From the NCBI RefSeq assembly GCF_002795825.1, contig NZ_CP018800.1, positions 186,001 through 250,000 of the forward strand: DNA of 64,000 nt. The letters are read 5' to 3'. Made by a program: the position numbers and the translations under genes. The notes beneath the pieces were generated by a model, which saw only the letters and a list, made by a program, of their open reading frames with translations, did not search any database and had not been told where the DNA came from. Source of the stretch: Mariprofundus ferrinatatus (GTDB lineage Bacteria > Pseudomonadota > Zetaproteobacteria > Mariprofundales > Mariprofundaceae). Below, piece by piece: positions 2,114 to 57,438 of the stretch; the stretch's first letter is position 1, and each line of letters opens with the position of its first letter.

Positions 2114-2590
2114 ATGGCAATTGCAGTGATCACCATTCTGCTTCTGGCGCTGACTGCGTTTGCAGCCATGGCCATCCAGTCGCAGTCACCACCGAAAACA
2201 TTAGGGCTGCAGGATGGCATGCTTCGAGCCTGCCCGGACAAGCCGAACTGCCTCTGCAGTGAAGCCATCCTGTCCGCCAACGTGCGAAACAGAAGTGAAC
2301 CCATTGCCATCTTCAGCGGCCACTCGCAAAAGCGGGCGTGGCAACTGCTCAGGCAGGCTGTTATTCACTCTGGCGGTACGATTGAACAGGAGAGAGATGG
2401 TTACCTGCATGCAACCTACAGCTCCAGGCTTTTCCGTTTTATCGATGATTTCGAAGCGCGGCTTGACCGGCAGGCGGGGGTGATTCATCTGCGCTCTGCT
2501 TCCCGTGTTGGCCACTCCGATTTCGATGCCAATCGGAAAAGGGTGGAGACCATTCGCCGCGAATACCTGAAAGGTCTATCTCAGCAGTAG
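2114..2590 (+). CDS. DUF1499 family protein with N-terminal membrane anchor or signal
   Basis: A 158-residue protein with a hydrophobic N-terminus (AIAVITILLLALTAFAAMA) followed by the DUF1499 pattern CPDKPNCLCSE, YLHATYSSRLFRFIDDFEARLD and IHLRSASRVGHSDFDANRKRVE. The family is widespread in proteobacteria and plants and has no assigned activity. Start choice is uncertain: the Shine-Dalgarno GGGAGGC (2094-2100) is about 13 bases from this ATG but only 4 bases from an in-frame CTG at 2105, which would add M-K-K and give a better-looking signal peptide. The 3' end overlaps the end of the opposing CoA-binding gene by 15 bases. Confidence 0.8.
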   Translation: MAIAVITILLLALTAFAAMAIQSQSPPKTLGLQDGMLRACPDKPNCLCSEAILSANVRNRSEPIAIFSGHSQKRAWQLLRQAVIHSGGTIEQERDGYLHATYSSRLFRFIDDFEARLDRQAGVIHLRSASRVGHSDFDANRKRVETIRREYLKGLSQQ

Positions 2591-53961: not shown

Positions 53962-56548
<2,587 letters not shown>

Positions 56549-56556
56549 TCATTAAA

Positions 56557-56583
56557 TTGGCACTCTTTCAGCCGGAGTGCTAA
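56557..56583 (+). promoter_or_regulatory. CIRCE element (HrcA operator) upstream of rpoH
   Basis: TTGGCACTC and GAGTGCTAA are separated by exactly nine bases. This equals the CIRCE consensus TTAGCACTC-N9-GAGTGCTAA with one difference (A to G at position 3). CIRCE is the binding site of the heat-shock repressor HrcA. It ends 33 bases before the GTG start of rpoH, so it lies in the promoter or leader of rpoH. Confidence 0.92.
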
Positions 56584-56616
56584 ATATATTTGGCTTGATT
56601 TGGAGGTGTTTAAAAG

Positions 56617-57438
56617 GTGACTGCAGCAACAGGTGAGATGACAAGTCTGGCTCTCTTTTCGCGCGAAATGCGTAAAGTGGATCCCCTTTCACGTGAGGAA
56701 GAGACACGTCTGGCCCGCTTGTGGCACGAGAGTGGCGACCGCGAAGCGGCCCGTCAGCTGGTAGTTTCCAACCTCGGCGGCGTGGCAGCTATTGCCCGCG
56801 AATATCGCCATTTCGGGTTGCCTGAGATGGATCTGATTCAGGAAGGCACCATGGGCCTGATGCATGCCGTAAAACGCTTTGATCCGGACAAAGGTTTCCG
56901 TCTGATGACCTATGCATCGTGGTGGGTGCGCGCATCTATCCACGATTTTATTCTGCGCTCCTGGAGCATTGTCAAACTTGGCACCAACAAATTGCAGCGT
57001 CGTATCTTTGCCGGTCTTCAGAAGGCGAAAAATGCCATCGCTGCACTGGATGGAAACAGGGCTGATGAGGTGGGTGCCGATTACGGGATGAACGGTACGC
57101 AGTATCAGGAGGCGGCCAACGCATTTTTGCAACGTGATCTGTCGCTTGATGCCGAGTACGAGGAGGGCGATGCGCTGGTCCATTCATTGCCTTCAGATCA
57201 TGCCACACCGGAGCAGATCGTGCTGGAGTCCAACTGGGAGAGCCATCAGAAAACAGCACTTTACCGGGCACTGAACTCCCTTTCCGATCGCGACCGCCTT
57301 ATCGTCGAGCGTCGTCATATGTCTGAGGATCCGGCAACCCTTAAGGATCTGGCCGATGAGTTCGGCGTATCGATTGAGCGGGTTCGCCAGCTTGAGGCAC
57401 GGGCGATGAAGAAGCTGAAAGAGGCTGTAGCCCACTAA
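56617..57438 (+). CDS. rpoH: RNA polymerase sigma-32 factor
   Basis: A 273-residue sigma-70-family factor of the RpoH group. Region 2 reads LVVSNLGGVAAIAREYRHFGLPEMDLIQEGTMGLMHAVKRFDPDKGFRLMTYASWWVRASIHDFILRSWSIVKLGTNKLQRR; the RpoH box follows in LQKAKNAIAAL; region 4 ends EFGVSIERVRQLEARAMKKLKE. It directs heat-shock gene transcription. The start is GTG with GGAGG about 10 bases upstream. A CIRCE operator precedes it, so HrcA probably represses it. A terminator follows. Confidence 0.96.
   Translation: MTAATGEMTSLALFSREMRKVDPLSREEETRLARLWHESGDREAARQLVVSNLGGVAAIAREYRHFGLPEMDLIQEGTMGLMHAVKRFDPDKGFRLMTYASWWVRASIHDFILRSWSIVKLGTNKLQRRIFAGLQKAKNAIAALDGNRADEVGADYGMNGTQYQEAANAFLQRDLSLDAEYEEGDALVHSLPSDHATPEQIVLESNWESHQKTALYRALNSLSDRDRLIVERRHMSEDPATLKDLADEFGVSIERVRQLEARAMKKLKEAVAH

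Follow-up and report, generated by a model that had tools for sequence, protein, structure and literature searches.

The rpoH gene of Mariprofundus ferrinatatus is preceded by an inverted repeat that resembles CIRCE, the operator of the repressor HrcA, which raises the question of whether HrcA controls the heat-shock sigma factor in this organism. We analysed a window of 64,000 nucleotides, meaning the whole stretch from position 186,001 to 250,000 of contig NZ_CP018800.1, together with the rest of the genome and with genomes from inside and outside the class Zetaproteobacteria. The product of the rpoH ORF scored 283 bits against NF005143, the model of the sigma-32 subfamily (cut-off 241), and 282 bits against the equivalog model TIGR02392 (cut-off 323). 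The genome encodes no other sigma-32-like protein, and the nearest named relatives of this RpoH come from Mariprofundus and other Zetaproteobacteria. The gene lies close behind ligA, on the same strand. The coordinates of all features are collected in Table 1.

Table 1. Features around rpoH (window positions) and at hrcA (positions of locus L001), with the basis for each
Feature	Position	Strand	Basis or remark
ligA, NAD-dependent DNA ligase, upstream neighbour of rpoH	54497..56533	+	
Weak terminator-like hairpin (9 bp) at the end of ligA	56523..56544	+	Folding; this genome only
Predicted -35 box of the rpoH promoter, TTGATT	56530..56535	+	Promoter scoring versus shuffles; overlaps the ligA stop codon
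Predicted -10 box, TAAATT	56553..56558	+	Promoter scoring; two-base overlap with the start of CIRCE
CIRCE operator (putative HrcA box)	56557..56583	+	TTGGCACTC-N9-GAGTGCTAA, 1 mismatch; conserved upstream of rpoH in 17 Zetaproteobacteria genomes
Shine-Dalgarno sequence of rpoH, GGAGG	56602..56606	+	Sequence
rpoH, coding for a sigma-32-type sigma factor of 273 aa; starts with GTG	56617..57438	+	NF005143 and TIGR02392 scores
Degenerate CIRCE at the hrcA start	L001, near 2485-2522	-	5 mismatches

The putative operator reads TTGGCACTC-TTTCAGCCG-GAGTGCTAA (full string TTGGCACTCTTTCAGCCGGAGTGCTAA). Compared with the CIRCE consensus TTAGCACTC-N9-GAGTGCTAA, it carries a single mismatch in 18 positions (A to G at position 3) and has a spacer of exactly nine bases. 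Its end is separated from the GTG codon of rpoH by 33 bases. The preliminary description was thus accurate both in identifying this 27-base repeat as CIRCE with one mismatch and exact spacing and in placing it 33 bases ahead of the rpoH start. A search of the window allowing up to three mismatches returned this site as the sole match, against a mean of 0.01 in shuffled sequences. Given the base composition of the window, the analytical expectation for a match with at most one mismatch is 0.0014 per 2.3 Mb genome and 5e-8 per given 100 bp.

The repressor itself, which the preliminary description had suggested looking for, is encoded in the genome. The assembly consists of a single contig of 2.30 Mb with one copy of hrcA (PF01628, 196.8 bits, cut-off 22.2), the first gene of hrcA-grpE-dnaK-dnaJ. 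A whole-genome pattern search with at most three mismatches retrieved exactly two CIRCE boxes, one ahead of rpoH and the other ahead of groESL, the latter with one mismatch and located 94 bases before the start of the groES ORF. A degenerate box with five mismatches, CTGGCAGTC-N9-GAGTGCCAG, was also observed at hrcA, where it overlaps the listed GTG start. Its position across this codon suggests that the true start of hrcA is an internal ATG downstream of the box, which we consider the likelier start codon, and that hrcA may be autoregulated. Based on the two good boxes and the degenerate one, the predicted HrcA regulon comprises groESL, rpoH and, probably, hrcA-grpE-dnaK-dnaJ. No sigma-32-type promoter sharing 10 or more of the 13 consensus positions was found ahead of rpoH or hrcA.

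The positions of rpoH, CIRCE and hrcA were compared in 78 genomes of the class, and the regions upstream of rpoH were then scored. In 17 genomes belonging to eight genera, a CIRCE box with zero to three mismatches was located 30-97 bases ahead of the matched part of rpoH, whereas the best upstream score of every other rpoH gene scored was at least six mismatches, making the distribution bimodal. All 17 genomes with the box encode hrcA. Conversely, the box was present before rpoH in 17 of the 23 hrcA-bearing genomes with a detected rpoH, versus none of the 45 genomes lacking hrcA (Fisher P=2e-11, a value that ignores relatedness). No CIRCE of at most two mismatches was found anywhere in the hrcA-lacking genomes of the class. 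When contrasts were drawn on well-supported branches of the tree, only two independent ones showed a difference in both traits at once, each time in the direction expected; the independent-contrast test for hrcA and CIRCE was not significant, the contrasts being too few. Within the genus to which the window belongs, five near-complete genomes (G047, G048, G051, G052 and G056) lack hrcA and, along with it, every CIRCE of at most two mismatches. Among them, G048 matches Mariprofundus ferrooxydans PV-1 (L070).

The phylogeny of RpoH separates two paralogous groups within the class. Four of the six hrcA-bearing exceptions (G037-G040) possess only the other paralogue, so the box is present in 17 of the 19 hrcA-bearing genomes that have the orthologous rpoH. 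The remaining two, G055 and G065, encode both hrcA and the orthologous rpoH, yet lack the box. Some Zetaproteobacteria carry both paralogues (for example, G049:C3 with G049:C20; G052:C62 with G052:C63), and CIRCE was found before only one of the two. In some relatives, CIRCE occurs as tandem pairs 61-62 bases apart (L009 and L015, corresponding to G038:C28 and G045:C138, and also G020:C11). When the upstream regions were anchored on the box, identity between genomes reached 94% and 89% in the two arms, compared with 40% in the spacer and 28-34% in the flanks. Conserved arms with a drifting spacer and drifting flanks are, as judged from this comparison, the pattern of selection on a protein-binding site.

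We also searched for the best sigma-70-like promoter whose -10 element falls within -40 to +45 relative to the start of the box. In the window, this search predicted TTGATT-N17-TAAATT, with transcription starting near 56565, within the box. The best promoter overlapped the box in all 17 genomes, its -10 element lying at the left edge of the box, inside the spacer, at the right edge or just past the right arm. Over these genomes, the mean promoter score was 11.6, versus 7.3 in shuffles that kept the arms (maximum of 200 shuffles, 8.6). The window's own promoter, whose predicted strength is only moderate, is to be taken as a prediction, since a stricter consensus scan did not list it.

Taken together, 56557-56583 is very probably a functional HrcA operator overlapping the -10 region and start of rpoH, through which the gene would be repressed and, upon heating, derepressed together with groESL, raising the sigma-32 regulon. 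HrcA repression is the best reading because the box tracks hrcA, has conserved arms and overlaps promoter-like sequence. With hrcA present in the genome, the control of rpoH by HrcA proposed in the preliminary description is well supported by comparative genomics. At normal temperature, HrcA seated on the box would block RNA polymerase. Heat or protein-folding stress would then abolish HrcA activity; inactivation by heat or by chaperone titration is known from other HrcA systems. Once HrcA is inactive, rpoH would be derepressed along with groESL and probably also hrcA-grpE-dnaK-dnaJ, and the resulting sigma-32 would boost its own regulon. HrcA binding and repression at rpoH, the transcription start and the inactivation by heat or chaperone titration are inferred. 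The view of HrcA as a superior regulator of the sigma-32 regulon is overstated, as groESL and probably hrcA-grpE-dnaK-dnaJ would remain direct targets.

Other explanations of the repeat were weighed against HrcA repression. That it merely resembles CIRCE by chance has a negligible probability, and we ruled this out given the very low expectation for the 100 bp concerned and the recurrence of the site upstream of rpoH in eight genera. The main role of the repeat could instead be that of an RNA hairpin within the rpoH leader, affecting mRNA stability or attenuating read-through from ligA, rather than that of a DNA operator. It does fold as RNA (-12 kcal/mol, z -3.7), and a terminator scan lists it as terminator-like. 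However, conservation of the arms concerns their sequence, not pairing with free sequence, and the box is missing where hrcA is missing. Moreover, the predicted start lies within the box, so the transcript from that promoter would include only part of the repeat. Given this conservation of sequence over pairing, and with no match of note in Rfam, we rejected an RNA element, a role that we regard as improbable.

It is similarly unlikely that HrcA binds the box with little effect, rpoH being expressed mostly through read-through from ligA or from promoters elsewhere, with sigma-32 regulated chiefly at the post-transcriptional level; post-transcriptional control of sigma-32 is established in E. 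coli. The proximity of rpoH to ligA on the same strand agrees with such an arrangement, as does the weakness and lack of conservation of the terminator-like hairpin between them, but the box has been retained in eight genera despite its drifting surroundings. This hairpin, which spans the ligA stop codon (-12.6 kcal/mol, z -3.3) and is followed by a short, weak T tract, had been taken as a terminator shielding rpoH from ligA. The hairpin and T tract are indeed present, but they are absent from the output of the terminator scan, and the matching sequence forms the hairpin in none of the aligned near relatives, several of which retain promoter-like sequence there, not a hairpin. A shielding terminator was rejected, the hairpin being found in this genome only.

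The predicted HrcA control of rpoH has a precedent in the comparative study of Geobacter sulfurreducens published in 2004, in which CIRCE was predicted at -51 of rpoH, as well as before groESL and hrcA-grpE-dnaK-dnaJ (PMC545781, Table 8). Both cases, alike computational, have CIRCE close before rpoH, a genome encoding hrcA and the same set of targets. The present one differs in the class of the organism, the one-mismatch box, the degenerate site at hrcA and the overlap with a predicted promoter. It shares with classical HrcA/CIRCE systems, in which groESL and hrcA-grpE-dnaK-dnaJ are controlled, the operator, the repressor family and a box in or near the promoter, and departs from them in that a sigma factor gene is a target besides the chaperone operons. 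Outside the class, we surveyed 60 Pseudomonadota genomes, most of them picked for having CIRCE boxes. At least 33 of these 60, a proportion that is no estimate of frequency given how the genomes were picked, have CIRCE with at most two mismatches immediately upstream of rpoH (25 found in 40 fetched upstream regions, plus eight more by coordinates). Boxes with zero or one mismatch precede rpoH in Methylococcaceae bacterium PMV_1.33 (L101), an uncultured proteobacterium (L107) and two Gammaproteobacteria MAGs (L113 and L128), and one with two mismatches does so in another Methylococcaceae bacterium (L130). With so many genomes from many other families, the arrangement is widespread. The notion that such a placement is unusual is not supported by these comparisons, as it was predicted in G. 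sulfurreducens in 2004 and recurs in many other families. The box described here is a further instance of that arrangement, and its novelty is low. Our searches of open-access papers turned up no study in which the action of HrcA on an rpoH promoter had been tested by experiment.

The predicted circuit would join in one cascade the repressor-based (HrcA) and the sigma-factor-based (RpoH) heat-shock systems, which are usually described apart, and the link appears to be widespread in hrcA-bearing Pseudomonadota and not peculiar to Geobacter. More tentatively, HrcA could act as the principal transcriptional gate of the sigma-32 regulon in Zetaproteobacteria, forming a layered feedback cascade, with lineages that lost hrcA having erased the rpoH operator and rewired their heat-shock control; the genome matching M. 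ferrooxydans PV-1 would be an example of such loss. If this possibility holds true, hrcA-loss lineages would be a natural experiment on the joining and separating of two heat-shock circuits. The paired presence and absence of hrcA and the rpoH operator in Mariprofundus-like bacteria offers a clean comparison of the gain and loss of a regulon.
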